Positions 10,414 to 45,999 of a DNA stretch of 49,434 nucleotides are shown here, one piece after another. Made by a program: the position numbers and the translations under genes. Source of the stretch: Akkermansiaceae bacterium. Its GTDB lineage: Bacteria; Verrucomicrobiota; Verrucomicrobiia; Verrucomicrobiales; Akkermansiaceae. The stretch spans positions 1 through 49,434 of the forward strand of contig JARWZU010000084.1 in NCBI GenBank assembly GCA_029866215.1, read 5' to 3'. The notes under the pieces were generated by a model that worked only from the letters and a program-made list of their open reading frames with translations, searched no databases and was not told the origin of the DNA. Numbering within the stretch: the stretch's first letter is position 1; each line of letters starts with the position of its first letter.

Positions 10414-10509
10414 AGGTGCAGGCGTTGTGATGAACGCGATGATGTTAAATTTTTTAATCATTCAGAAAACCCCGGCGGCGTGCAAACCTTGCCTGTCACC
10501 CACTGGCAC

Positions 10510-11994
10510 ATGAAACATCTACTCCTCGTCCTCTTCGTAGTTTCATCTACTTCGATCGCCGCAGTGAGGCCCAATGTTCTCCTCATCCTCGTTGATGACC
10601 TCAGGCCCGCCATCGGAGCCTTTGGCGACAAGATCGCGATCACTCCGAATCTCGACCGACTCACGCATCGTGGAATGCGCTTTGATGCCGCCTACTGCAA
10701 CCAAGCGGTGTGCACACCGTCCCGTTTCAATCTCATGCTCGGCTCACGCTCAACCTCCAGCGGACTTTACGACCTCGATAGCGACCTGCGCAACGCTTTC
10801 CCCAATGCAGTCACCCTGCCTCAGCATTTCGCCAAGCACGGCTACCGCACTGAGTCTCTCGGCAAAGTCTTCCACATCGGTCATGGAAATGGCGGCGATC
10901 CTGAATCATTCTCCGTTCCGCACTTCAAGGACTTGGTGGTCGAGTACAAACTGCCGGGCAGTACGAACGGTGGCCAGCTCACGCGGGAAGAGGGATACTT
11001 CGCCAATCAGGGGAAATTCGATACCGAAGGCAAGCTGCGGCCGCGCGGCGCGGCATTCGAGGCCCCTGAGGTCGAGGACGAAGCCTATGCCGATGGCCGC
11101 ATCGCGAAGGAAACGATCAAACGTCTCACCGCCGCCAAGGAGAGCGACCAACCGTTTTTCATCGCAACTGGCTTCAGCCGTCCGCACCTGCCATTCAGCG
11201 TTCCCAAAAAATATTGGGATTTCTACGATTCGGAAAAATTCAATCTAGCAGCCATCAACTCGCCCCCCAAAGGAGCACCCAAGTGGGCGGTCAAGGCTGG
11301 CGCGACTGGCGAGATCTCCGCTTACAAACCGGTTCCTGAAAAGGGCGACATCGGAGACGATCTCGCACGCCAGCTCATCCACGGCTACTACGCATCCACG
11401 AGTTATGTGGATGCTCAAATCGGTAAGGTCATCGACGCCATCGATCGCCTCGGTTTTGCAGAAAACACGATCCTTGTCCTCTGGGGCGACAATGGCTTCC
11501 ATCTCGGCGAGCTCGGCATCTGGACCAAGCATGTCAACTACGAGACAGCCACCCGCATCCCCATCGTCATCGTCGCGCCCGGCTTCACCGCGCCCGGCTC
11601 TTCCACAGACCAACTCGCCGAAACCGTCGATATCTATCCGACCTTGGCCGCTCTGGCCGGACTCCCAGCCCCGGCGGGCCCGCAGCCGATCGATGGCACC
11701 AGCCTTGTCCCTGTCCTAAGGGATCCCGCCGCCCGCGTCCGAGACCACGCCTATCATTGCTTTCCCCGCGGCGGCATGCTCGGCTCGGCCATCCGGACAG
11801 ACCGTTATCGGCTGGTCGACTGGCGTCCGATCGGCAAGCCCGATGCCACCCCCGTCTGCGAACTCTACGACTATCAAGGCGGTGCGGTGGAAACTGTGAA
11901 TTTGGCGGATGCCAAACCCGGCATCGTCGCTAACCTGCGAGCCATCCTCGCCGGCCATCGGCAACCACACGGTTTCTCGGTTAAAGAGAAATGA
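10510..11994 (+). CDS. Exported sulfatase, iduronate-2-sulfatase-like (S1 family)
   Basis: This arylsulfatase-superfamily enzyme has 494 residues from the ATG at 10510, which gives a clean signal peptide ending at IAAVRP. A GTG at 10480 would add ten residues before the signal and is less likely. The metal-binding Asp29-Asp30 pair (NVLLILVDD), the formylglycine motif CTPSR with Cys68, and the later metal-site segment GDNGFHLGELG (about 325-335) are all present, so it should be active after Cys maturation by a sulfatase-maturating enzyme not in this window. The pattern around CNQAVCTPSR and the GKVFH segment resembles the iduronate-2-sulfatase group (S1_7-like), whose bacterial members act on sulfated polysaccharides of algae or host. 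Expected location: periplasm or outside. Confidence 0.9.
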   Translation: MKHLLLVLFVVSSTSIAAVRPNVLLILVDDLRPAIGAFGDKIAITPNLDRLTHRGMRFDAAYCNQAVCTPSRFNLMLGSRSTSSGLYDLDSDLRNAFPNAVTLPQHFAKHGYRTESLGKVFHIGHGNGGDPESFSVPHFKDLVVEYKLPGSTNGGQLTREEGYFANQGKFDTEGKLRPRGAAFEAPEVEDEAYADGRIAKETIKRLTAAKESDQPFFIATGFSRPHLPFSVPKKYWDFYDSEKFNLAAINSPPKGAPKWAVKAGATGEISAYKPVPEKGDIGDDLARQLIHGYYASTSYVDAQIGKVIDAIDRLGFAENTILVLWGDNGFHLGELGIWTKHVNYETATRIPIVIVAPGFTAPGSSTDQLAETVDIYPTLAALAGLPAPAGPQPIDGTSLVPVLRDPAARVRDHAYHCFPRGGMLGSAIRTDRYRLVDWRPIGKPDATPVCELYDYQGGAVETVNLADAKPGIVANLRAILAGHRQPHGFSVKEK

Positions 11995-13253: not shown

Positions 13254-14213
13254 TCAGATCACGCCATTGGCGCAATTGCAGTCACCTTCGCCCTTGAATG
13301 CATTGATCAAGTTGGTGAGTGACTTCATGGCTTGGCGTGGAACGCTTTCGTAGGTGCGGGAGCCGATGTGCGGAGTGATCACGCAGTTAGGCGCCGAGAG
13401 AAGCGGGTGATCTGCCGGTGGTGGTTCGATGTCGAGGACGTCGGCACCGTAGCCGCCGACTTTGCCGCTCTTGAGGGCCGCGACCATGTCGGGGGTTTCG
13501 ACGATTTCGCCGCGAGCGCAGTTGAGGATGATTACGCCATCCTTCATTTCGGCGATTTTTTCCGTGCGGATCATGCTGCGAGTTTCATCAGAGAGGTTGC
13601 AGTGGAGTGAAACCACATCCGACTGGGTGAGTACCTCATCCATGGTGGCGCAGCGGGTCACGCCGTATTCGGTCGCGAACTTTTCGTCCCAGTACGGGTC
13701 GAAGGCGATGATCGGCATGCCGAAGGCTTTGGCGCGGATGGCCACTTCCTTGCCGATGCGGCCGAGGCCGACGATGCCCATGGTTTTATCGGCGATTTCA
13801 TGACCGGTGAGGCGAAGCCATTCGCCTTGGCGTGCGGCAGCCGCCGTGGTGACGATGTGCTTGGTGATGCCGATGAGCAGGCCGAACGTGTGTTCAGCGA
13901 CGGTCGTGTGGTTGACGCCTGGGGTGAAGAGGACGGGGATTTTGAGTTCCTTGGTTGCAGGCACGTCGATTTTATCGAGGCCGATTCCGTACTTGGAGAT
14001 GATTTTCAAGCGTGGCAGTGATTTCTCCAGCACCGCGCGTGAGATGGCATCGTCGCCGCAGAGGAAGGCATCAAAGTCGCCCGCGAGTTCGAGCATGCGG
14101 GCCTCGGTGAGTGGGCCGCGTTCGCGGACGACCTCCCAGCCTTGGGCTTCCATGAGTGAGTGGTGAGGGCCAGGAGTGTCTTGATAGCTGCAGGTGGTGA
14201 GTAGGACGCGCAT
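13254..14213 (-). CDS. D-isomer-specific 2-hydroxyacid dehydrogenase (short, phosphoglycerate dehydrogenase-like)
   Basis: A 319-residue NAD-dependent oxidoreductase without the C-terminal ACT region of serA. The nucleotide-binding motif GLGRIG is at residues 149-154, and the catalytic triad is Arg234 (NCARGE), Glu263 (DIEPPP) and His282 (TPHIGS). The substrate is a 2-hydroxy or 2-keto acid; the family includes phosphoglycerate, hydroxypyruvate and glyoxylate reductases, and I cannot choose between them. The C-terminus ends with a Cys pair (DCNCANG), which is unusual but of unknown meaning. A full-length SerA is encoded at 47366-48961, so this one probably serves a different reaction. The protease gene lies 96 bases upstream on the same strand. 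Confidence 0.88.
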   Translation of the reverse strand: MRVLLTTCSYQDTPGPHHSLMEAQGWEVVRERGPLTEARMLELAGDFDAFLCGDDAISRAVLEKSLPRLKIISKYGIGLDKIDVPATKELKIPVLFTPGVNHTTVAEHTFGLLIGITKHIVTTAAAARQGEWLRLTGHEIADKTMGIVGLGRIGKEVAIRAKAFGMPIIAFDPYWDEKFATEYGVTRCATMDEVLTQSDVVSLHCNLSDETRSMIRTEKIAEMKDGVIILNCARGEIVETPDMVAALKSGKVGGYGADVLDIEPPPADHPLLSAPNCVITPHIGSRTYESVPRQAMKSLTNLINAFKGEGDCNCANGVI

Positions 14214-34306: not shown

Positions 34307-34371
34307 CTTTGTTTCGTTGGTATTTTTTGGTTTTTGATTTGACATGTCAACTAAATCCAACAAAAACAAAG
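34307..34371. promoter_or_regulatory. Candidate operator of the DeoR regulator
   Basis: Between the two divergent starts, CTTTGTTTCGTTGG (34307-34320) and CCAACAAAAACAAAG (34357-34371) form a long imperfect inverted repeat. Inside it is a perfect 12-base palindrome TTGACATGTCAA (34339-34350). The region is otherwise AT-rich, as expected for a shared divergent promoter. DeoR-family operators are commonly spaced inverted repeats. Assignment to this regulator is inference from position. Confidence 0.55.
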
Positions 34372-34442
34372 CAGATTCACGTGGGCCCGGGCCAAGATTG
34401 GTTCGACGCGTGAAGACCCACCACCATTTATTCAAAACCACC

Positions 34443-36635
34443 ATGTCCAATTATCAATACGTCAACCACCTCTGGGACGATGCCAAGGCTGCGTCTCTCG
34501 ACCCCGTCGGCCGTTTGGCCTACCGCTCGAATATTCTCGGCAGCGATCAACGGATCACCAACACGGGTGGAGGGAACACCTCGTCGAAGGTAATGGAGAA
34601 AGATCCCCTCACTGGAAAGTCCACCGAAGTGCTCTGGGTGAAGGGCTCGGGCGGCGATCTGCGCACTAGCACTCGTGAGAATTTCTCATCGCTCTATCAG
34701 GATAAATTGATGGATCTCCAAGCGCTCTATGCAGCGCGAGAGGACAAAGGGCTGAAGGCGCCTGCGGAAGATGACATGGTGGGCATGTACACGCATGCTA
34801 CCTTCAATTTGAATCCACGTGCATCTTCGATTGACACGCCACTTCATAGTTTCATCCCCGCGAAGTTTGTGGATCACATGCACCCGAATGCGATCATTGC
34901 GCTAGCAGCGTCTGAGAACTGTGAGCAGCTCACCCAAGAGATTTTTGGTGGTGAGATGGCTTATGTGCCATGGATGCGACCCGGCTTCGAACTCGGACTT
35001 GCGATGCAGGAAATTGTTAGGAAAAATCCAAAGGTTAAGTCGATCATGATGGGCCAGCATGGCTTTATCTCGTGGGACGATGACGAGAAATCTTGCTACA
35101 CCTACACGTTAGATTGCATTGAGAAAGCTGCTGCGGCGATTGAGGCCAAGTATGCGGCAAAGGGTGGCGATGCGACCGCCTTCGGCGGTGCCAAGTATGC
35201 GACGTTGGAAGCCGACCAGCGCCGTGCCATTCTAGCAGAAATTTTGCCTTGGTTCCGTGGTCAGGTCTCGAAGAAGCGTCGTTTCATCGGCACCGTGCAA
35301 GACGATGAGAAGATTCTGCGCTTTGTGAATTCAAACGATGCCGCCCGCCTCGCAGAGTTGGGAACCAGCTGCCCAGATCACTTCCTCCGCACCAAGATCA
35401 AGCCGCTGTATGTTGATTGGAATCCGCAAACGGAGGATGCCGGAGCCCTTCAGGCCAAACTAGCAACCGGTCTTGAAGCATATCGTGAGGATTACGCAGA
35501 ATACTACGAAAGCTGCAAACACGCCAATTCCCCTGCAATGCGCGATGCCAACCCGACCGTGGTGCTTATTCCTGGGATTGGGATGATCGCATGGGGCAAA
35601 GATAAATCCGAGAGTCGGGTCACTGCGGAATTTTATAACTGTGCGGTTGAGGTGATGCGTGGTGCTGAAGCGATCGATCGCTACATCTCACTGCCACAGC
35701 AAGAGGCATTCGACATCGAATACTGGTTGTTAGAAGAGGCGAAGCTCCAGCGGATGCCTGCAGAAAAGGAACTCGCTCGTCAGGTGATCATCGTGATCGG
35801 TGCTGGATCCGGGATCGGCAAAGAAACTGCGCATCGACTCGTGAAAGATGGGGCGCATGTGGTTTGTGTGGACCTCAATGCGGAATCAGCAGCTGCAACC
35901 GCTGAGGAAATTACCGACAAGTATGGTCTTGGCATCGGTGTCGCAGGCACGGGCTTGTCGAATTGCGGATTGGCCATCGGGCTCGCAGCGAACATCACCG
36001 ATCGCGCATCAATCCGTCACATGCTTGATGATGTTGCGATCGCCTATGGCGGGTTTGATTCGATTTGCGTAACCGCTGGGATCTTCGTTGCCAGCGACAC
36101 CACTGGTCATATCCCGGACGATAAGTGGGCACTTACTTTTAACATCAATGTGATAGGCAGTTACCTCGTTGCTGACGAAGCTTTCAAGACGTGGAAAGTT
36201 CAAGGTCTTCGTGGGCAACTCGTTCTTACCACATCGGCCAACGCTGCGGTCGCGAAGAAAGGTTCGCTGGCTTATGATACTTCCAAGGCGGCAGCGAACC
36301 ACCTCGTGCGTGAACTTGCGATGGAGCTTTCGCCTCTGGTTCGAGTCAATGGGGTGGCTCCTGCAACAGTGGTGCAAGGATCCGGGTTGTTCCCGCGTGA
36401 CCGCGTGATCGGCTCACTTGCAAAGTACAACATCCCGTACACCGACGATGAGGCCACGGAGTCGCTCGTTTCCAAGCTTGCGCAGTTCTATGCGGATCGC
36501 ACGCTGACGAAGGCTCCGATCACTCCAGCAGATCAAGCAGAAGCCTATTTCATCCTTGTTTCGCAGCGGCTTAGTAAGACCACCGGTCAGATCGTTACGG
36601 TCGATGGCGGGCTTCATGAAGCATTCCTGCGCTAA
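34443..36635 (+). CDS. Bifunctional class II aldolase / short-chain dehydrogenase (RhaEW type)
   Basis: 730 residues from the ATG at 34443 (MSNYQYVNHLWDD); an ATG at 34344 would add a basic 33-residue lead that overlaps the operator palindrome. The N-terminal class II aldolase domain (about 20-430) has GGGNTSSK and the zinc-site HMHPNA (His145, His147), then GQHGFISW. The C-terminal short-chain dehydrogenase (about 445-730) has GAGSGIG near 452-458 and the YDTSK catalytic pair near Tyr611. Fusions of this type split rhamnulose-1-phosphate (or a related 6-deoxyketose phosphate) into dihydroxyacetone phosphate and lactaldehyde and oxidise the aldehyde. No rhamnose isomerase or rhamnulokinase gene is adjacent. 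It is divergent from the DeoR gene and followed by a hairpin. Confidence 0.9.
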   Translation: MSNYQYVNHLWDDAKAASLDPVGRLAYRSNILGSDQRITNTGGGNTSSKVMEKDPLTGKSTEVLWVKGSGGDLRTSTRENFSSLYQDKLMDLQALYAAREDKGLKAPAEDDMVGMYTHATFNLNPRASSIDTPLHSFIPAKFVDHMHPNAIIALAASENCEQLTQEIFGGEMAYVPWMRPGFELGLAMQEIVRKNPKVKSIMMGQHGFISWDDDEKSCYTYTLDCIEKAAAAIEAKYAAKGGDATAFGGAKYATLEADQRRAILAEILPWFRGQVSKKRRFIGTVQDDEKILRFVNSNDAARLAELGTSCPDHFLRTKIKPLYVDWNPQTEDAGALQAKLATGLEAYREDYAEYYESCKHANSPAMRDANPTVVLIPGIGMIAWGKDKSESRVTAEFYNCAVEVMRGAEAIDRYISLPQQEAFDIEYWLLEEAKLQRMPAEKELARQVIIVIGAGSGIGKETAHRLVKDGAHVVCVDLNAESAAATAEEITDKYGLGIGVAGTGLSNCGLAIGLAANITDRASIRHMLDDVAIAYGGFDSICVTAGIFVASDTTGHIPDDKWALTFNINVIGSYLVADEAFKTWKVQGLRGQLVLTTSANAAVAKKGSLAYDTSKAAANHLVRELAMELSPLVRVNGVAPATVVQGSGLFPRDRVIGSLAKYNIPYTDDEATESLVSKLAQFYADRTLTKAPITPADQAEAYFILVSQRLSKTTGQIVTVDGGLHEAFLR

Positions 36636-38411: not shown

Positions 38412-39266
38412 TTAGGAAATGGCGATTTGCAATGCGCCTCGAATTCCAGCTTCTTGCCCAAGTGCAGGGGGCACAATGAATCCATCAGCCTCAGAAAACG
38501 TGAAATAGCCAGCGGAGATCTCGTTCAAGCATGTGGCGATCTTCGGGTGCAGGGACTTCGACTGAGAGACGCCGCCACCCACGATCACGCGGGATGGTGG
38601 AACAATTGCAACGAGGGCTAGGATTCCATGGGCAAGGTACCATGCCTCCGTGTCCCACGCGGGGTGGTCCGCTGGCAATTCATGAGCGGGCTTTCCCCAG
38701 CGTGCAGCGATCGCCGGTCCGCTCGCGAGACCTTCCAAGCAATCGTGGTGAAATGGACAGACTCCAGGAAAATCATCGCCTGGCATGCGTGGAATTTTGA
38801 AGTGGCCGAATTCTGGGTGAAGCGCGCCGTGGATCAGTCGTCCGCCAGAGAGAATACCAGCCCCAATCCCGGTGCCGATGGTGATGTAGACGACATCGTC
38901 CAATCCGGCCGCGGCTCCAGCCTTGGCCTCTGCAAGAGTGGCAGCGTTGACATCGGTATCTAACACCAATTCGCATGCCGGAAAGGCGGAGGAGAAAAGA
39001 TCTGTGATGGAAAACCCGGCCCATCCGACCTTGGGTGTCGCTAGAATTTTGCCGTAGGTCTCACGGTTTTTCACGATACCTGCGGGGCCGAATGTTGCGA
39101 TGCCGATCCGATCTGGCGTGCCTCTTTCGCGGATCCATTCGATGGCCAGCCCAAGTGTCTCGGTGGGTAGTGTGGTAGGGAAACGCCACTCCTCAAGAAC
39201 GGATCCGTTAGATGATCCGACCGCGACGACTGTTTTTGTTCCACCGAGTTCGATGCCTGCGATCAT
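38412..39266 (-). CDS. ROK-family sugar kinase, fructokinase (ScrK/GmuE)-like
   Basis: 284 residues. The ATP site is IELGGTKTVVAVG at the start. Another ROK signature is ITIGTGIGAGILSGGRLIHG. The zinc-binding block of fructokinase-type ROK proteins follows (HPEFGHFKIP, CPFHHDCLEGLASGPA), then VIVGGGVSQ. This group typically phosphorylates fructose or mannose. In the present operon it might phosphorylate a ketose or ketoacid made by the pathway; it is not a typical KdgK (PfkB-type) kinase, so a KDG-kinase role would be a guess. It is the last gene of the minus-strand run, nine bases after eda. Confidence 0.88.
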   Translation of the reverse strand: MIAGIELGGTKTVVAVGSSNGSVLEEWRFPTTLPTETLGLAIEWIRERGTPDRIGIATFGPAGIVKNRETYGKILATPKVGWAGFSITDLFSSAFPACELVLDTDVNAATLAEAKAGAAAGLDDVVYITIGTGIGAGILSGGRLIHGALHPEFGHFKIPRMPGDDFPGVCPFHHDCLEGLASGPAIAARWGKPAHELPADHPAWDTEAWYLAHGILALVAIVPPSRVIVGGGVSQSKSLHPKIATCLNEISAGYFTFSEADGFIVPPALGQEAGIRGALQIAIS

Positions 39267-39275
39267 GGTAGTGCC

Positions 39276-39908
39276 TTAGTGGGTTGCGCTGGCAGCATGG
39301 ATGGCCTCGCGGGTGATTCGGGTGATGTCGGCCCATTTGCCTTCGTTCACCAATCGCTTGTCGACCATCCATGATCCACCGATGGCGGCTACTACGGGCA
39401 ATTTGAGGTAGTCTGTTAGATTGCTAGAAGAGACTCCGCCAGTTGGGATAAACTTCACGCCCGTGTGTGCATAGGGGCCTGAGAGAGCTTTGAGCATGTT
39501 CACGCCACCAGCGACCTCGGCGGGGAAAAACTTGAGGAGTTTGCAATCGAGCGAGAGTGCGAGCTCGACCTCACTGGGTGTCATGACTCCGGGGGAAAAC
39601 TGTAGTCCAATTTCATGAGCCGCCGTGATAATCTGGGGATTGAGTCCGGGAGCGAGGCCGAAGACCGCACCGGCGTCCTTTGCTCTGCGAACTTGATCTT
39701 GATTCAGAAGGGTTCCAGCACCCAACAGGATTTCGGGAAATCGTTTGGAAATGCGTCGAATGGATTCCTCTGCCGCAGCGGTTCGAAAGGTGATTTCCAT
39801 GATATCAAGTCCGCCTGCAAGGAGGGCCTCAGCAAGGGGCTCGGCGGATTCTACATCGTCAAGAACGACAACGGGAACAATGCGTTTGGCGAGGATGCGA
39901 TCAATCAT
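39276..39908 (-). CDS. eda: KDPG/KHG aldolase
   Basis: 210 residues, class I aldolase of the Entner-Doudoroff and uronate pathways. It cleaves 2-keto-3-deoxy-6-phosphogluconate to pyruvate and glyceraldehyde-3-phosphate. The catalytic Glu38 (MEITFRTAAA), the Schiff-base Lys126 (LLKFFPAEVAGG), and the phosphate-site GAGTLL and PTGGV motifs are all present. Related enzymes act on the 6-phosphogalactonate epimer, and the sequence does not distinguish these with certainty. It sits 44 bases after the lactonase gene and 9 bases before the ROK kinase gene, within the sugar-acid operon. It is the expected last step when D-tagaturonate or D-fructuronate is degraded via KDG. Confidence 0.93.
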   Translation of the reverse strand: MIDRILAKRIVPVVVLDDVESAEPLAEALLAGGLDIMEITFRTAAAEESIRRISKRFPEILLGAGTLLNQDQVRRAKDAGAVFGLAPGLNPQIITAAHEIGLQFSPGVMTPSEVELALSLDCKLLKFFPAEVAGGVNMLKALSGPYAHTGVKFIPTGGVSSSNLTDYLKLPVVAAIGGSWMVDKRLVNEGKWADITRITREAIHAASATH

Positions 39909-39952
39909 GAGAGCGATTTAAGGGTCTATTTTGGCGGTGAGCGAATCGTCCG

Positions 39953-40780
39953 TTAGAGGTTGTAAATTCTTACGGCATTGTCGTGGAGGATTGCAGCGGA
40001 TTCATCGGCGGTGAGGCCCTCTACAAAACTGTGAACAGTCTGAGTCCACGATGGGTACGAGTCAATTCGAAGCAAGCAGACGGGCCAATCGGTCCCAAGC
40101 ATCAAGCGATCTGGGCCAAAAAGCTCGAGCGTTTCATCGAAATAAGCCCGTAGGGTGGCCGGGTCGATGATTGGATCGATCACTTCAGTCACCATGCCCG
40201 AGATCTTCACGCCAAGGATGTGCTCGCGTTTCGCCAGTTCGGCCATCCCAGTTTTCCAGGCGGGATCAACCTTGCCGTTGCGGATTTCGGGCTTCGCCAA
40301 GTGGTCAATTATGATGCCGAGATCAGGTTGGCGGTCGACGAGTTGGATCGCGACTTGGAGTTGGCGTTGGAAAATGAGCAAGTCGTAGCGCAGATCGAGA
40401 TCCGGAAGCAGAGCGAGTCCTCGGTGGAAATCCTCTCGCAGGAAATACGCGTCAGGTTCCTCTTGAAGGACATGTCGTACCCCTTTGAACTTTGGATAAG
40501 CCGCGAGGTGCGAAAGCAGGTGGGCCACGTTGGGATCGATAAGCGGGACCCAACCGACCACGCCCGCAATGATTTCTGACTGGTCGGCGAGTGAAAGCAG
40601 CCACTCCGATTCCTCTAACGTCTGGCGTGCTTGAATGACGATGGTGCCATCGACGCCTGCAGCTGAGGTGGCTTCATTCAGTTCATCTAATAACTGATTG
40701 CGCGCCAGTGGTGAGTTCGGCGGAATCCATGGATACTCCGCAGCCGAATATTTCCAGAGGTGGTGGTGCGAATCGATCAC
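39953..40780 (-). CDS. Amidohydrolase-superfamily sugar lactonase (COG3618, fucono/galactono-lactonase-like)
   Basis: 275 residues with a GTG start that overlaps the stop of the preceding gene (GTGA, 40777-40780), so translation is coupled. The metal-site motif DSHHHLW lies at the N-terminus; KFKGVRHVLQEEPD, IIDHLAKPEI and LMLGTDWPVC are the other COG3618 hallmarks. Known members hydrolyse L-fucono-, L-galactono- and L-rhamnono-lactones or 4-sulfomuconolactone. Here the aldo/keto reductase two genes upstream would supply a lactone, so hydrolysis of L-galactono-lactone (or L-fuconolactone) to the acid is the most economical reading; exact specificity is inference. Confidence 0.88.
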   Translation of the reverse strand: MIDSHHHLWKYSAAEYPWIPPNSPLARNQLLDELNEATSAAGVDGTIVIQARQTLEESEWLLSLADQSEIIAGVVGWVPLIDPNVAHLLSHLAAYPKFKGVRHVLQEEPDAYFLREDFHRGLALLPDLDLRYDLLIFQRQLQVAIQLVDRQPDLGIIIDHLAKPEIRNGKVDPAWKTGMAELAKREHILGVKISGMVTEVIDPIIDPATLRAYFDETLELFGPDRLMLGTDWPVCLLRIDSYPSWTQTVHSFVEGLTADESAAILHDNAVRIYNL

Positions 40781-42027
40781 AGGAAGAGAGGCTTCATGTG
40801 GCGCTCTAGCAGATTCACCGTCACATTTTTTGCAACGATCTCGGAGTTATCTCTGAGGGCTTGGATGTAGGTGTCGCCGAGTTGTGCGGCGATCTTGAAG
40901 CCGACGTGGAGCAGTTGGCGGAGGTCCGCGTTGTATCCAGGGTTCGATGGAATGTGTCGAAGCGCGTCGGTAAACTGTGTACTTGTCCAGCCGTCGACTT
41001 CAGCAGCGGTGGGGAGGTTCGAGTAGTGGATATCGATCACGGTGGCGTAGGGTTCGCTGAGTGCTTCCTTCTTTTCGAGGGCCTTTACATAAATAGTTTT
41101 TGCTAGAGCGAGACCCTCGCCGCCTGCTTCTGCTAGGCCTACGATTTCCTCGAGCCAATTGGTACCCGCCGTTTTGATGTGCAGTCCCGCACCCGTTCGT
41201 TGGATCGCCTTTTTGATGTAGGGGTAAATCGAAAACTTGTCTGAACCCGAGTGCACTGAAAGCTTCAGCGTGTCGGGCAATCCATAGGTCTTCACGGCGT
41301 GTGCGATGACTGCGAGATCTTCGTTGAACTCCTTTTCAAATTGGAGCGGGTCGCCGACGTAATCGACGCCTTTGTTGAAGCGGCCGGTGAATTTCGGTGC
41401 GATGGTTTGGATCGGGATCCCTTGATCGGCAATGGCTGCAAGAATGATGAGAAGCTCGGGTGGCGTTTGAGGGCTCTCGGTCTCATCCATCGAGACCTCA
41501 GTGACAAATTCATCCACGCCGCCTTTGGCAGCGACGACGTGCTGATAGATCGCAGCTGCCTTTTGGGTCGCTTTGAGAAATTGGTTCGCCGTCTTCTCTA
41601 CATCGGACTGAGTGATTTCAAACGGTTCGGCGATGCCCTCGATGGTGATGGTGCCGATCAACTCAGGGTGTTTTGCGATGAAGGCTGCAACATCTGCAGG
41701 TTCTGCGGCCTCGCCGATGTCGTCCGCAACGTCGAGGGTGAAAAAATCGCATGGGGCCACAAATCGATCAACGGTCGAGAGGTTGATGTGGTCGGCATCT
41801 AATAAATACTCACCGGTCCATCCGAGATCGGCTACGGCTTTGTCAGCGGCTGCACGGGTCTGTGATGGTTCTGAGCCGATAATGTTGTGTTCGCGATTCG
41901 ACTTGTTCCAGACAGGAGTGATGTCGATGCCGAGTTTCTTGGCTTCGATAAACGCGGCGAGTTGGGCATGGGCACCGTTGGCGAAGCGATCGCCGACGCC
42001 GAAGGTATATTTAGGACATCTTTTCAT
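40777..42027 (-). CDS. uxaE: Tagaturonate/fructuronate epimerase-like protein (UxaE family)
   Basis: 416 residues from ATG 42027 (MKRCPKYTFGVGDRF); a longer start at 42114 lies deep within the previous gene. Features recalled from the UxaE family (described for Thermotoga) are VGDRFANGAHAQL, DADHINLSTVDRF, APKFTGRFNKGVDYVGD and the diagnostic SVHSGSDKFSIYP. Family members epimerise D-tagaturonate to D-fructuronate, bypassing the tagaturonate reductase route. Identification is from memory of motifs and has not been searched. It overlaps the zinc dehydrogenase gene by 17 bases and the lactonase by 4, so it belongs to one operon. Adjacent enzymes that would make D-tagaturonate support the call. 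Confidence 0.8.
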   Translation of the reverse strand: MKRCPKYTFGVGDRFANGAHAQLAAFIEAKKLGIDITPVWNKSNREHNIIGSEPSQTRAAADKAVADLGWTGEYLLDADHINLSTVDRFVAPCDFFTLDVADDIGEAAEPADVAAFIAKHPELIGTITIEGIAEPFEITQSDVEKTANQFLKATQKAAAIYQHVVAAKGGVDEFVTEVSMDETESPQTPPELLIILAAIADQGIPIQTIAPKFTGRFNKGVDYVGDPLQFEKEFNEDLAVIAHAVKTYGLPDTLKLSVHSGSDKFSIYPYIKKAIQRTGAGLHIKTAGTNWLEEIVGLAEAGGEGLALAKTIYVKALEKKEALSEPYATVIDIHYSNLPTAAEVDGWTSTQFTDALRHIPSNPGYNADLRQLLHVGFKIAAQLGDTYIQALRDNSEIVAKNVTVNLLERHMKPLFL

Positions 42028-43066
42028 AATTTGATTCGTTGACTTCAATGATGGCTTTGATCGCGCCAAGTGCGGGATTGGTGAACTTTTCGAACTCGGA
42101 AGGGACATCGTCAAATGCGATGCGGTGCGTGATCCAAAGATCGGTATCGATTTTCCCTTCGCGAATCAACTGGATGATTTTTTCAAAATCGTCGGGCATG
42201 GCATTGCGAGAGGCGAGCAGCGTGATTTCCCTGCGGTGGAAGACTGCGGCGTGCGGGAAAGTGATATCGGCCGTGGTGATCCCGACGTACACTACGCGCC
42301 CGGTGAAGGCGGCGTATTCGAAGCAGGTGGACATCGAACGTGGATTTCCGGTGGCATCGATGACGACATTCGCGAGCTGTCCGGCCGTGATGGTTTCGAG
42401 TTCGGAGAGATGTGAACCGTCGGAGTTGAAGGCGATTGCGTGGTGGATGCCGAGGTGGGTCTGGCAGAAATCCAAGCGGCTTTGGACCATGTCCATCACG
42501 ATGGTTTTCACCTCCATGAGCTTGAGGAATTCGAGGCATGCGAGACCGATCGGACCGGCCCCGATAACGAGAACCGTTTCGCCGGGTTGTGGGTTTCCGC
42601 GTTGAACTGCGTGGTAGCCGATCGCGAGAGTTTCGACCAAGGCTAACTGATCGTACGTTAGGTCATTACCGACATGGAGTTTGCGAGCGGGGACTGCAAA
42701 AATTCCTTTGCGGAGTCCGCCGTTATTGTGGACGCCGACCACTTGCACGCCGGGGCAGCAGTTGGGTGAGCCGCTTCGTGAGGTGGTGGACTGTGGGTCA
42801 TTGACATAAGGCTCAAGCGAGCACTTATCGCCGGGTTTCACGTTCGTGACATCATCTGCTACGGCCACGACTTCAAGGCCGAGTTCGTGGCCGGGTGTGC
42901 GTGGGTAGGCAAAGAATGGAAATTTGCCAAGGTAGCAGGCGAGGTCGGTTCCGCAGATGCCCATGCGGTGGGTGCGTACCAGCGCCTCGCCGGGCTCAGG
43001 GTGGAGAGGCTCGTCGAGGTCGATGACTGTGATTTCCCTTGGTGATGTGAACTGAATCGCTTTCAT
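42011..43066 (-). CDS. Zinc-type alcohol dehydrogenase, probable L-galactonate/L-gulonate 5-dehydrogenase
   Basis: 351 residues. The start ATG (43066) shares a base with the preceding stop (TGATG), which indicates coupling. Catalytic zinc ligands are Cys38 (GICGTD) and His60-Glu61 (PGHELG). The structural zinc loop is reduced to PNCCPG followed by VQVVGVHNNGG, a pattern I associate with hexonate dehydrogenases such as those acting on L-galactonate or L-gulonate. The nucleotide site is VLVIGAGPIGLACLEF. In this operon, oxidation of L-galactonate to D-tagaturonate would connect the lactonase with the UxaE-like epimerase. L-gulonate to D-fructuronate is an alternative. The specificity cannot be proved from sequence. 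Confidence 0.85.
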   Translation of the reverse strand: MKAIQFTSPREITVIDLDEPLHPEPGEALVRTHRMGICGTDLACYLGKFPFFAYPRTPGHELGLEVVAVADDVTNVKPGDKCSLEPYVNDPQSTTSRSGSPNCCPGVQVVGVHNNGGLRKGIFAVPARKLHVGNDLTYDQLALVETLAIGYHAVQRGNPQPGETVLVIGAGPIGLACLEFLKLMEVKTIVMDMVQSRLDFCQTHLGIHHAIAFNSDGSHLSELETITAGQLANVVIDATGNPRSMSTCFEYAAFTGRVVYVGITTADITFPHAAVFHRREITLLASRNAMPDDFEKIIQLIREGKIDTDLWITHRIAFDDVPSEFEKFTNPALGAIKAIIEVNESNYEKMS

Positions 43067-44004
43067 CAATTGTTTTCTGGGAGTCCCTCGACGTGACCTG
43101 AGTTCTTTACCGGAGCAAAGATGGCAAGCACTTCTTCTAATAGGCTTCGATCGATGGGTTGCTCGATCCACTCCGCCCATTTGCGGATGTTCGTTGGGTT
43201 CGCCGAGCCAGCGATGGTGGTGGCGAGCCCAGGATGTTCGCATGAAAACTGAATGGCCAGTTGGGCGATGTCGACACCGCGGTCTGTGCACAGCTTGGCG
43301 GCGGTGCGTGCGGCAGCTTTCACCTCATCGGATTCCTTGAGCCATGCTGGTAGCTCTGCGTTGGTGAGTAATCTAGCAGAAAATGGTCCGGCGTTCATTG
43401 CCCCGATGTTTTTGGCGGCGAGACGCGGAAGGATTTCATCGACGAACGTGGTATTTTGAAGGGTGTAGCGATTGTAGGCGAGGACGCAGTCAATCTCGTC
43501 TTCTACGTGGTCGAGCACCGTATGAATGGTCTTGAGGGGGTAACACGAGAATCCGATCGCGCGGACCTTTCCTTGTGCTTTAAGCTTGAGGACCGCCGGG
43601 AGGGTTTCCTCCCAGATTTGGGGGAGTGGAACGAATTCTACATCATGAAGCAGCAGGACATCCAAGTGATCGGTTCCGAGGCGCAGGAGCGAAGTGTGGA
43701 CTGATTCCTCGACCCGTTTTGCGGAGAAATCGAAATGCGTGTGGGTGTAACGGCCGAGTTTGCTTCCTAACAGGTATTGATCGCGAGGGATTCCTTTGAG
43801 CCCGAGGCCTAGCAGGATTTCAGACATACCGCGGCCGTAGAATGGCGAGGTATCGATGAAGTTCATGCCGAGATCGATTGCTGTTTTGGTCGATTGCATC
43901 GCCTCGTCCAGGGTGATCGAGCGGAACTCGGCACCGAGTGAGGAAGCACCAAACGAAAGGATCGGTAACTCGATACCGGTTTTGCCAAGTGGCCTTGTTA
44001 TCAT
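43066..44004 (-). CDS. Aldo/keto reductase, probable L-galactose (or L-fucose) 1-dehydrogenase
   Basis: 312 residues from ATG 44004, one base after the preceding stop (TAACATG). The aldo/keto reductase fold starts RPLGKTGIELPILSFGASSLG; the catalytic tetrad is visible as Asp in NFIDTSPFYGRG (with Tyr), Lys in LLGSKLGRY and His in VLLLHDVEF. The pattern FIDTSPFYGRGMSE with SKLGRY is typical of the L-galactose dehydrogenase/L-fucose dehydrogenase group, which oxidises the sugar at C1 to the lactone. L-fucose is 6-deoxy-L-galactose, so both may be used. It is coupled to the zinc dehydrogenase that would act two steps later. Confidence 0.87.
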   Translation of the reverse strand: MITRPLGKTGIELPILSFGASSLGAEFRSITLDEAMQSTKTAIDLGMNFIDTSPFYGRGMSEILLGLGLKGIPRDQYLLGSKLGRYTHTHFDFSAKRVEESVHTSLLRLGTDHLDVLLLHDVEFVPLPQIWEETLPAVLKLKAQGKVRAIGFSCYPLKTIHTVLDHVEDEIDCVLAYNRYTLQNTTFVDEILPRLAAKNIGAMNAGPFSARLLTNAELPAWLKESDEVKAAARTAAKLCTDRGVDIAQLAIQFSCEHPGLATTIAGSANPTNIRKWAEWIEQPIDRSLLEEVLAIFAPVKNSGHVEGLPENN

Positions 44005-44005
44005 G

Positions 44006-44803
44006 TTAGAGATGGGATTGGATCGACTTGATGGTTTGTAACGCAGCAGATAACGGATCCGGGAGTGGTAAAATTTCAGCAGAAAAGTAGCCACGATAAC
44101 CAATCTCACGCAACGCCGTCATTACCTCAGTCGGGTTAGTGTGGCCGAATCCCATGGCCTGGCGGTTCGAGTCGGCGAAATGGACGTGGCCAATGTGTCT
44201 TGCGGCGTCTTTGATGGCGGCGGCTAGGTCGGTTTCCTCGATGTTCATGTGGAACAGGTCGGCGAGGATGACAACGTTCTGGAGGTGGTGGAGATCGATG
44301 AATTGGGCCGCATCCTTCAAGCGGTTGAAAAGGTTGGTCTCGTAGCGGTTGAGCGGTTCGTAAATGAAGGGCACACCGTGAGTGGCCGCGCGCTCGCCGC
44401 AGCAGCGGAGTCCATCCGCAAGTTGGTTGAATGCATTTTCGTGGGTATTTCTCCCCTGCATCGATCCGAGGATTGCTGGGGCATTGAGCGCACCGCCGAA
44501 GTCGATCATGGCTAGGATGAAATCGAGGGCTTCATTGCGTTTTTCCTCCGAGGCATCGGTGATCGAAAGCCCGTGGCGTAGCATTCCGGCGCCAGTGCCA
44601 ATGGCAGCGATGTCGAGCTGGTGGGTTTCTGCGAGTGCTTTCACCTCATTGATTGAAATGAAATCTGGGCCGGGGAGAAACAACTCCACGGCGTCGAATC
44701 CAGCGGCGGCAGCGCTTGCGAAGGCTTCTGGCAGGGGGCTACGGAAAACGAATGGTCCCCCGAGGGCTTCGGCAACCTGACACAGAGTGATGGCGGTCTT
44801 CAT
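44006..44803 (-). CDS. Sugar-acid epimerase, TIM-barrel family, IolO-like
   Basis: 265 residues of the AP-endonuclease-2 TIM-barrel fold. The four metal ligands expected in this epimerase group are Glu149 (YEPLNRYE), Asp182 (ILADLFHMNIEE), His208 (HVHFADSNR) and Glu243 (AEILPLP). These segments and AIGTGAGMLRHGLS closely resemble what I recall of IolO of Thermotoga, which interconverts 5-keto-L-gluconate and D-tagaturonate; this is from memory and unsearched. Other members are ketose 3-epimerases and hydroxypyruvate isomerases, so a different substrate is possible. It is one base before the aldo/keto reductase gene and 11 bases after nspC. The shared D-tagaturonate node with the UxaE-like gene strengthens the call. 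Confidence 0.82.
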   Translation of the reverse strand: MKTAITLCQVAEALGGPFVFRSPLPEAFASAAAAGFDAVELFLPGPDFISINEVKALAETHQLDIAAIGTGAGMLRHGLSITDASEEKRNEALDFILAMIDFGGALNAPAILGSMQGRNTHENAFNQLADGLRCCGERAATHGVPFIYEPLNRYETNLFNRLKDAAQFIDLHHLQNVVILADLFHMNIEETDLAAAIKDAARHIGHVHFADSNRQAMGFGHTNPTEVMTALREIGYRGYFSAEILPLPDPLSAALQTIKSIQSHL

Positions 44804-44814
44804 GGATTTTGCCG

Positions 44815-45999
44815 TTAGGATAGGCGATCTCGGAAGTCGGCGTAGGTGAACTCACGAAGGACTTCGAGCGAGCCGTCATCGTGTTGCAGGGCGATGGGTG
44901 GGTGTTTTACCCCGTTGAACGTCGTGGTTTTCACCATCGTGTAGTGCGCCATGTCATCGAATACCAAGATATCGCCCACTTGGAGTTCACGGTGAAATGC
45001 AAAGTCCCCGGCGACATCGCCCGCGAGGCAGGTGGGTCCACCGAGGCGATAGACGTATGGTCCAGCTTCGGTAGCGGCATGATAGTTTTCCCCCTCGAAC
45101 GTGACGGCGGGTTTCGCGCCAACACTCGGCGTGGAATCCACCAAAAACACATCGGGCCGGTAAGGCATTTCCATCACATCAGGCATGTGAGCGGTCGCTG
45201 AAATGCTGAGGATCGCGAGGTGGTGGCCGGCGGATTCGAACACATCCATGACGGTTGCCCGTAGCACGCCCGTGTGGATGGCCACAGCTTCACCAGGCTC
45301 TAGCCAAACATTGACCGAGTATTTCTCTTGGGTTTCTCGAACGAGGCGAATGAGGCGCTCGCGGTCATAGAATGGCTTGGTGATCCAGTGGCCACCACCC
45401 ATGTTGAGATAGGTAAATTGTGGCGAGTTGAGCAGGTGGCCGAATTTTGCGTCGACTGCAGCCAGAGTTTGTTCGAGCGCGTCGGAATCTTGTTCGCAAA
45501 GCGTATGAAAGTGCAGGCCTGATAGACCCGTTAGATCATGACCGTTGAGCTGGTCCGCCGTGACGCCGAGTCGTGAGCCCGGCACGCAAGGGTCATAGAT
45601 CGGTGTGTCGCCGGTCGAGCATTCTGGATTGATGCGCAGGCCGCAGAGAAGTTCCCCGCTTTGGAAACGTGGGTGAGCCATGATGGTTTCCCGGAAGCGG
45701 AGCCATTGAGAAATTGAGTTGAAGTCGAGGTGGTGGGTGAATTCACAGAGCGCTTTGATTTCATCTTCATCGTAGGCGGGCGAGTAGGTGATGATGTGTT
45801 TTTGAAAGTAGTCGCGCGCGAGCCAAGCCTCCCAGAGGCCCGAGGCGCAGCAGCCATCGAGGTCGTCCGTGAGGTAGGGGAATGCCTTCCAACATGAGAA
45901 CCCTTTGAGAGCCAAAACGAGATGGCAGTCTGCAGCTTCTTTGACATCGCGCAGGATGGCGGTGTTTCGTTTGAGTGCGGCGGTCGAGATGACAAACAT
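44815..45999 (-). CDS. nspC: Carboxynorspermidine/carboxyspermidine decarboxylase
   Basis: 394 residues of the PLP-dependent alanine-racemase-fold decarboxylases. It makes norspermidine or spermidine from the carboxy-polyamine in the alternative polyamine pathway. The PLP lysine is Lys32 (LALKGFSCW). Family segments are CGLRINPECS, LHFHTLCEQ, YLNMGGGHW, EPGEAVAIHTG, HMPDVMEMPYRPD, GPTCLAGD and MAHYTMVKTTTFNG. The start ATG gives a normal length. The usual partner, carboxynorspermidine dehydrogenase, is not in the window. It ends 11 bases before the IolO-like gene, so it may be cotranscribed with the sugar-acid genes, although no functional link is obvious. Confidence 0.93.
   Translation of the reverse strand: MFVISTAALKRNTAILRDVKEAADCHLVLALKGFSCWKAFPYLTDDLDGCCASGLWEAWLARDYFQKHIITYSPAYDEDEIKALCEFTHHLDFNSISQWLRFRETIMAHPRFQSGELLCGLRINPECSTGDTPIYDPCVPGSRLGVTADQLNGHDLTGLSGLHFHTLCEQDSDALEQTLAAVDAKFGHLLNSPQFTYLNMGGGHWITKPFYDRERLIRLVRETQEKYSVNVWLEPGEAVAIHTGVLRATVMDVFESAGHHLAILSISATAHMPDVMEMPYRPDVFLVDSTPSVGAKPAVTFEGENYHAATEAGPYVYRLGGPTCLAGDVAGDFAFHRELQVGDILVFDDMAHYTMVKTTTFNGVKHPPIALQHDDGSLEVLREFTYADFRDRLS

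Follow-up and report, generated by a model that had tools for sequence, protein, structure and literature searches.

What does an operon degrade that places a predicted D-tagaturonate/D-fructuronate epimerase, UxaE, among genes resembling those for the oxidation of L-glucose and L-galactose? The question is raised by a stretch of 49,434 nucleotides from an Akkermansiaceae bacterium (contig JARWZU010000084.1, assembly GCA_029866215.1), hereafter the window, which is one entire contig of a draft genome of 3.03 Mb that is 97.4% complete. We consider it likely that the operon degrades both L-galactose and L-glucose, by an upper part of the type found in Luteolibacter sp. LG18 that is joined to UxaE at D-tagaturonate. 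L-glucose is presumed absent from nature, and two bacterial lineages are reported to use it (PMC12632266).

The UxaE gene and its operon

Seven consecutive open reading frames (ORFs) on the minus strand fill positions 44803 to 38412 exactly, in the following order of transcription:

44006..44803, minus strand: IolO/LguG-like TIM-barrel protein (best NCBIfam model IolO, 226 bits)
43066..44004, minus strand: LguA-like aldo/keto reductase (AKR), 312 aa, predicted L-galactose/L-glucose 1-dehydrogenase (PDB matches and identity to the LG18-type locus L299)
42011..43066, minus strand: LguD-like zinc dehydrogenase, 351 aa, predicted L-galactonate/L-gluconate 5-dehydrogenase (identity to L299)
40777..42027, minus strand: short UxaE, predicted D-tagaturonate/D-fructuronate epimerase, 416 aa (Pfam, fold, catalytic residues)
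39953..40780, minus strand: COG3618-type amidohydrolase, putative aldonolactonase, 275 aa (best NCBIfam model L-fucono-1,5-lactonase, 230 bits; best PDB sequence 4dlf)
39276..39908, minus strand: LguE-like 2-keto-3-deoxy-6-phosphogluconate (KDPG) aldolase, eda, 210 aa (TIGR01182, 251 bits, cut-off 156)
38412..39266, minus strand: LguF-like ROK kinase, 284 aa (best NCBIfam model ScrK fructokinase, 199 bits, under its cut-off of 400)

The first two genes lie 1 base apart (TAACATG), the AKR and zinc dehydrogenase genes overlap by 1 base (TGATG), the zinc dehydrogenase and UxaE genes by 17 bases (UxaE ATG at 42027), and the UxaE and lactonase genes by 4 bases (GTGA), while gaps of 44 and 9 bases precede eda and the ROK gene, respectively. 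These coordinates bear out the seven genes and six junctions of an initial annotation made from the DNA letters. The G+C content of the operon (0.554) is close to that of the window (0.558). Matches over the Pfam cut-offs were obtained for UxaE, Amidohydro_2, ADH_zinc_N, Aldo_ket_red, Aldolase (KDPG), ROK and AP_endonuc_2.

The assignment of the fourth gene to UxaE, made in the initial annotation, is confirmed by a profile search, in which PF16257 scores 180.2 bits, far over the curated Pfam cut-off of 27.1; fold and catalytic residues agree with it. The match covers profile positions 80-457 of 475, the window protein being a short form that lacks about 80 N-terminal profile positions. Its structure model (pLDDT 92.8) is best matched by solved UxaE and tagatose-4-epimerase structures, with 6il9, 6ila, 6ilb and chains of 9lhu, 9lhw and 9lhy providing the nine best Foldseek matches (TMq 0.77-0.82, 23-25% identity). 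The catalytic residues of the Cohnella enzyme, given in a review as Glu126 and Asp159 (PMC11194214) and counted in the numbering of a 489-residue chain, align with Glu46 and Asp79 of the window protein, neither of which varies in two alignments, one of 21 and one of 33 sequences. In other lineages UxaE adjoins UxaC, GH28 and short-chain dehydrogenase/reductase (SDR) genes, which fits action on D-tagaturonate.

The remaining genes resemble those of a dual L-glucose/L-galactose pathway described by Yachida et al. in October 2025 in LG18, which comprises lguABCDEF, lguG and lguH (PMC12632266). There, the kcat/Km of LguA is 40-fold higher with L-galactose than with L-glucose, LguD acts on L-galactonate and L-gluconate, and LguG forms D-tagaturonate from 5-keto-L-gluconate; the path continues with LguC and LguB via D-altronate to 2-keto-3-deoxygluconate (KDG), after which LguH phosphorylates and LguE cleaves. 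Disruption of the fructokinase LguF was without effect, and the other disruptants grew poorly on L-glucose and, lguG excepted, on L-galactose, complementation being impossible. The main text of that paper nowhere mentions UxaE, fructuronate, lactonase or mannonate (PMC12632266). For comparison we used locus L299 (genome G483), where the published LguD N-terminus is exact and that of LguA differs by one residue; its gene order is lguR-ABCDEF, with a divergent regulator followed by the AKR gene and by genes for proteins of 497, 367, 339, 222 and 292 aa.

By sequence, the window AKR is of LguA type (42.7% identity to the L299 AKR), the zinc dehydrogenase of LguD type (52.4% to the L299 protein bearing the published N-terminus, 35% to E. 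coli LgoD) and the aldolase of LguE type (79.2%); the ROK kinase is 68.0% identical to its L299 counterpart. The five best PDB sequences for the AKR are all named L-galactose dehydrogenase, and the best of them, 9w6y, matches residues 1-55 of the L299 AKR. The TIM-barrel protein has TM0416 as its best PDB sequence, and its likeness to LguG lies in the IolO model, matched under the cut-off, and in the RbsD neighbour of its relatives: an RbsD-type gene is present in 38 of the 60 loci with a window-type AKR (>60% identical), mostly directly ahead of the IolO-like gene, and lguG is drawn adjoining rbsD in a figure legend for LG18 (PMC12632266).

In sum of gene content, the window has LguA-, LguD-, LguE- and LguF-like genes and a putative LguG-like one, and retains the order A, D, E, F. 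It differs from LG18 in having UxaE in the place of LguC and LguB, in the position of the lguG-like gene, which is inside the operon rather than elsewhere, in the additional COG3618 lactonase and in the absence of an adjoining lguR. Since a genome-wide search found neither PF01232 nor altronate dehydratase (PF04295), we class the system as a variant of the LG18 pathway rather than as that pathway itself.

Combining family membership with synteny, we infer each substrate and direction in this organism as follows. The AKR would oxidise L-galactose or L-glucose at C1 to the lactone, which the COG3618 protein would open. The zinc dehydrogenase would then oxidise C5, yielding D-tagaturonate directly from L-galactonate and 5-keto-L-gluconate from L-gluconate, the latter product being turned into D-tagaturonate by the IolO/LguG-like epimerase; use of L-glucose holds if this first gene acts as LguG does. 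UxaE would convert D-tagaturonate to D-fructuronate, instead of the LguC/LguB path of LG18, an SDR encoded elsewhere in the genome would reduce D-fructuronate to D-mannonate, and the final steps to pyruvate would probably involve Eda. L-galactose as substrate and D-tagaturonate as branch point had both been proposed in the initial annotation and are supported by the LG18 pathway and by the exchange of UxaE and LguBC described below, although the chain drawn there omitted the TIM-barrel gene, the putative lguG counterpart, and missed the L-glucose branch. It had also called the joining of L-galactose steps to UxaE undescribed, and we too found no paper that joins UxaE or a tagaturonate epimerase to L-galactose catabolism, most subscription journals lying outside the literature searched. 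Papers that mention both UxaE and L-galactonate place UxaE, in the passages concerned, in hexuronate catabolism or just cite it.

Other known systems share parts of this arrangement. The UxaE branch of hexuronate catabolism in Thermotoga maritima was reportedly described by Rodionova in 2012. As outlined in parts of several papers, D-tagaturonate is converted there to D-fructuronate by UxaE and then reduced to D-mannonate (PMC7583248, PMC6978723, PMC7953866, PMC6353982), whereas the window UxaE is a short form tied to L-sugar oxidation, in a genome without GntE/LarA and without UxuA. The galacturonate fermentation of Lactobacillus suebicus, as far as it is outlined in PMC6978723, differs in starting from galacturonate; two of its activities are reported there without assigned genes. 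Bacteroides (Phocaeicola) vulgatus forms D-tagaturonate from L-galactose by L-galactose and L-galactonate dehydrogenases (Hobbs 2014, as cited in PMC12632266), and the window differs in having UxaE downstream and a predicted L-glucose epimerase. The E. coli L-galactonate route (lgoD, uxaB, uxaA) shares a zinc dehydrogenase of the LgoD kind, but starts from the acid rather than the sugar and goes via D-altronate.

Exchange of UxaE and LguBC across the family

In the family of the window, 86 of 195 genomes have the AKR at E <= 1e-60, and 78 of these loci were examined, the window and seven others being left out, mostly over about 7 kb on each side and less where contigs end. UxaE without LguB/C is found in 54 loci and LguB/C without UxaE in 13; no locus has both and 11 have neither, one of the latter belonging to a genome (G215) with UxaE on another contig. 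The hypergeometric value for this exclusion is 1e-8, which is too small because related loci were counted as separate, and the weight therefore rests on the count of changes in the AKR tree. The tree, quickly made from 97 rows that include named loci, has 24 unresolved forks and a very long branch at L308. It contains two clades, one mostly with LguBC and one mostly with UxaE, and each has exceptions: L267 and L275 combine a window-type AKR with LguBC, and L301 an LG18-type AKR with UxaE. At least three changes between UxaE and LguBC are required. The mutual exclusion and the repeated changes suggest, on the level of gene content, that UxaE most likely takes over at D-tagaturonate.

Gene order and genome content point the same way. 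In all 50 relatives that have both UxaE and an AKR more than 60% identical to that of the window, UxaE is encoded downstream of the AKR gene and on its strand, which argues that the arrangement is more than chance; in 10 further loci of this AKR type UxaE is not nearby. PF04295 is missing genome-wide from 7 of 7 UxaE-bearing family genomes searched and is present in the UxaE-free G178, and G295, from another family, has matches to both UxaE and PF04295. UxaE matches, short and long forms pooled, occur in 139 of 387 genomes of the phylum, and none of the LguBC genomes within this sample (G178, G251, G307, G319 and G327) is among them.

The known upper pathway for L-glucose and L-galactose appears here joined to a different lower branch. 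Loci that combine AKR and UxaE are frequent in the family (54 of the 78 above) and are also present among loci titled Planctomycetota, which is a wider spread than the Luteolibacter species in which all seven orthologs were found (PMC12632266). With these natural swaps it can be tested cleanly which of the tagaturonate branches functions, and they also suggest a further D-mannonate step.

Among the best 80 of 572 UxaE matches, relatives with at least 61% identity come from records titled Verrucomicrobiota, Planctomycetota and Acidobacteria. The 100 UxaE loci compared contain duplicates (L033 and L056 are one genome); L056, from Haloferula rosea KCTC 22201, contains RbsD, IolO-like, AKR, zinc dehydrogenase, UxaE and lactonase genes. 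In L061, from a metagenome-assembled genome titled Saprospiraceae, UxaE shares 77% identity with the window protein; the title or binning looks doubtful. Locus L301 carries in one row LguA, a cyclase, LguD, FucP, L-fucose mutarotase, L-fucose isomerase, a class II aldolase-like ORF and UxaE. A 215-aa cyclase-family gene (PF04199, 99 bits against a cut-off of 23; L294:8060-8707) follows lguA in 10 of the 78 AKR loci and is never found together with the COG3618 lactonase, which is present in 28, with neither in 40. The cyclase-family protein may be a lactonase of the LG18 type; the main text of the LG18 paper names none (PMC12632266).

The lower pathway and the points against the proposed route

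Several observations weigh against degradation of L-galactose and L-glucose through UxaE. Identity to the LG18-type proteins is no more than 43% for the AKR and 52% for the zinc dehydrogenase, and the window AKR sits in the sister clade to the LG18-type AKR. Scores remain under the NCBIfam cut-offs for the IolO-like protein (226 bits, cut-off 300) and the lactonase (230 bits, cut-off 400). Near window-type AKRs, eda is found in just 6 of 60 loci, once on the opposite strand, and the ROK gene in just 2 of 60; scans of the nearest genes showed no transporter. The UxaE-free genomes G243 and G254 also lack PF04295. Lastly, no known D-mannonate enzyme was found in this 97.4% complete genome: profile searches across it yielded no UxuA (PF03786), no Mannitol_dh fold of UxuB/UxaB (PF01232) and no LarA (Lar_N, PF09861), and the one strong enolase-superfamily dehydratase is assigned to another compound.

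The latter is one of two MR_MLE_C matches in the genome, neither of them in the operon. It corresponds to cis-3-hydroxy-L-proline dehydratase (622 bits against 500), and the other match, on contig C35, is weak (48 bits), so that we set aside an enolase-superfamily mannonate dehydratase. A GntE/LarA step was set aside for want of Lar_N. The ROK protein was likewise set aside as KDG kinase, as LG18 LguF phosphorylated fructose and not KDG (PMC12632266); judging from its sequence, it is probably a fructokinase outside the pathway.

The initial annotation had named the lack of both mannonate dehydrogenase and dehydratase as evidence that would speak against the route. The genome indeed lacks the dehydratase UxuA and has no mannitol-dehydrogenase fold of the UxuB kind, yet a candidate D-mannonate oxidoreductase exists: an SDR on contig C46 has this as its best NCBIfam model, although its 239 bits fall under the cut-off of 281 and count with the points above. 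It comes from a search confined to UxaE-bearing genomes, and its product would be D-mannonate. An SDR 48% identical to it is encoded inside an operon (L110) that unites AKR, zinc dehydrogenase, UxaE, SDR, IolO-like, RbsD and lactonase genes.

What would become of D-mannonate can be approached through relatives. In L157, L202, L203 and L318 such SDRs adjoin, in varying combinations, UxaC, Ldh_2, a PfkB kinase, a 2-hydroxyacid dehydrogenase or a gluconokinase-like gene. The genome studied here has UxaC (G000:C88) and an Ldh_2 protein (C69), and the window encodes a further enzyme of this set:

13254..14213, minus strand: 2-hydroxyacid dehydrogenase, 64% identical to the L157 enzyme and 62% to the L318 enzyme

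The L157 enzyme lies within a UxaC-SDR-PfkB-Ldh_2 cluster of another family, and the window dehydrogenase is possibly a distant partner of the lower pathway. Of 13 genomes, 12 have Ldh_2, among them the three that are free of UxaE, and it is missing from the UxaE-bearing G378; it therefore does not mark the UxaE type. In Acidobacteria (L071, L074, L076 and L077), operons that combine UxaC, UxaE and an SDR with LarA-like and gluconokinase-like proteins suggest galacturonate use through 6-phosphogluconate; the best model for their SDR is gluconate 5-dehydrogenase (251 bits, cut-off 279), with D-mannonate oxidoreductase sixth (224 bits). On a Saccharobesus litoralis plasmid UxaE is accompanied by gluconokinase, LarB, phosphogluconate dehydrogenase and UxaC. 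These gene sets correspond to the gluconate route proposed for Thermotoga, whose epimerase activity was shown later, according to part of PMC7583248. Gluconokinase in relatives points to gluconate, and KDG-kinase-like PfkB points to KDG. A route free of both altronate and UxuA could be drawn for L-glucose and L-galactose, in which UxaE and the SDR yield D-mannonate, C2 is inverted by oxidation and reduction (Ldh_2 and the 13254-14213 dehydrogenase) to give D-gluconate, and entry is as 6-phosphogluconate; we regard it as doubtful.

Alternative roles of the operon

L-fucose as the main substrate was the alternative offered in the initial annotation. On this reading the AKR and lactonase would produce L-fuconate, with the 6-deoxy acid as the substrate of the zinc dehydrogenase and UxaE. 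The lactonase is indeed nearest to L-fucono-1,5-lactonase, and FucP adjoins UxaE in some lineages: in L040 (FucP 342 bits, cut-off 280) with an RbsD/FucU protein, AKR, lactonase and zinc dehydrogenase, and alike in L041; on the Acidisarcina plasmid pACPOL3 (L334), where annotated fucP, AKR and zinc dehydrogenase genes are divergent from UxaE; and in L301, where FucP, L-fucose mutarotase and L-fucose isomerase are all over their cut-offs beside lguA, lguD and UxaE. However, the AKRs of L040 and L041 are just 22% identical to that of the window, and L301 carries its own isomerase for L-fucose. LG18 LguA had no activity on L-fucose (PMC12632266), and the UxaE-type relative G215 has a separate set (L205) with alpha-L-fucosidase, zinc dehydrogenase, SDRs and enolase-superfamily dehydratases. 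No L-fuconate dehydratase of the enolase superfamily is encoded in the operon, and a 6-deoxy acid could presumably not be phosphorylated at C6 for KDPG aldolase. The L-fucose proposal is weakened by the LG18 and G215 evidence, and we hold it to be unlikely. Loci L040, L041 and L334 represent a further L-sugar version with a non-orthologous AKR.

Alternatively, UxaE might serve D-galacturonate catabolism together with the UxaC of the same genome, its place in the operon being a matter of chance. UxaE adjoins UxaC in other lineages, but its mutual exclusion with LguB/C in AKR loci and its constant position downstream of the AKR make this quite unlikely; UxaE may well serve both L-sugar and D-galacturonate routes. 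A Thermotoga-like inositol route, with the zinc dehydrogenase as IolM and the TIM barrel as IolO supplying D-tagaturonate to UxaE, is very unlikely: although the TIM barrel has IolO as its first NCBIfam model and the dehydrogenase has IolM as its second, the dehydrogenase reaches 135 bits against an IolM cut-off of 450, an AKR and an aldonolactonase are not known to have a role in such a route, and the closest gene sets are the lgu genes, for which activity on L-glucose and L-galactose is published.

One more gene in the same orientation is found 11 bases upstream of the seven:

44815-45999, minus strand: carboxynorspermidine decarboxylase (NspC)

The order from NspC to ROK is found entire in L253, and also in L257, where a weak SDR match is inserted after NspC and ahead of the IolO-like gene; the decarboxylase is probably without functional tie to the operon. 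The window encodes one sulfatase (10480-11994) and a pectate-lyase-like protein. Agarase and porphyranase models were unmatched among the window proteins scanned, which cover part of the ORFs, and the red-algal origin of L-galactose suggested in the initial annotation was set aside as speculation. A bifunctional rhamnulose-1-phosphate aldolase/dehydrogenase (34344-36635, 1107 bits) is also encoded, and its presence makes methylpentose use by this bacterium likely as well.

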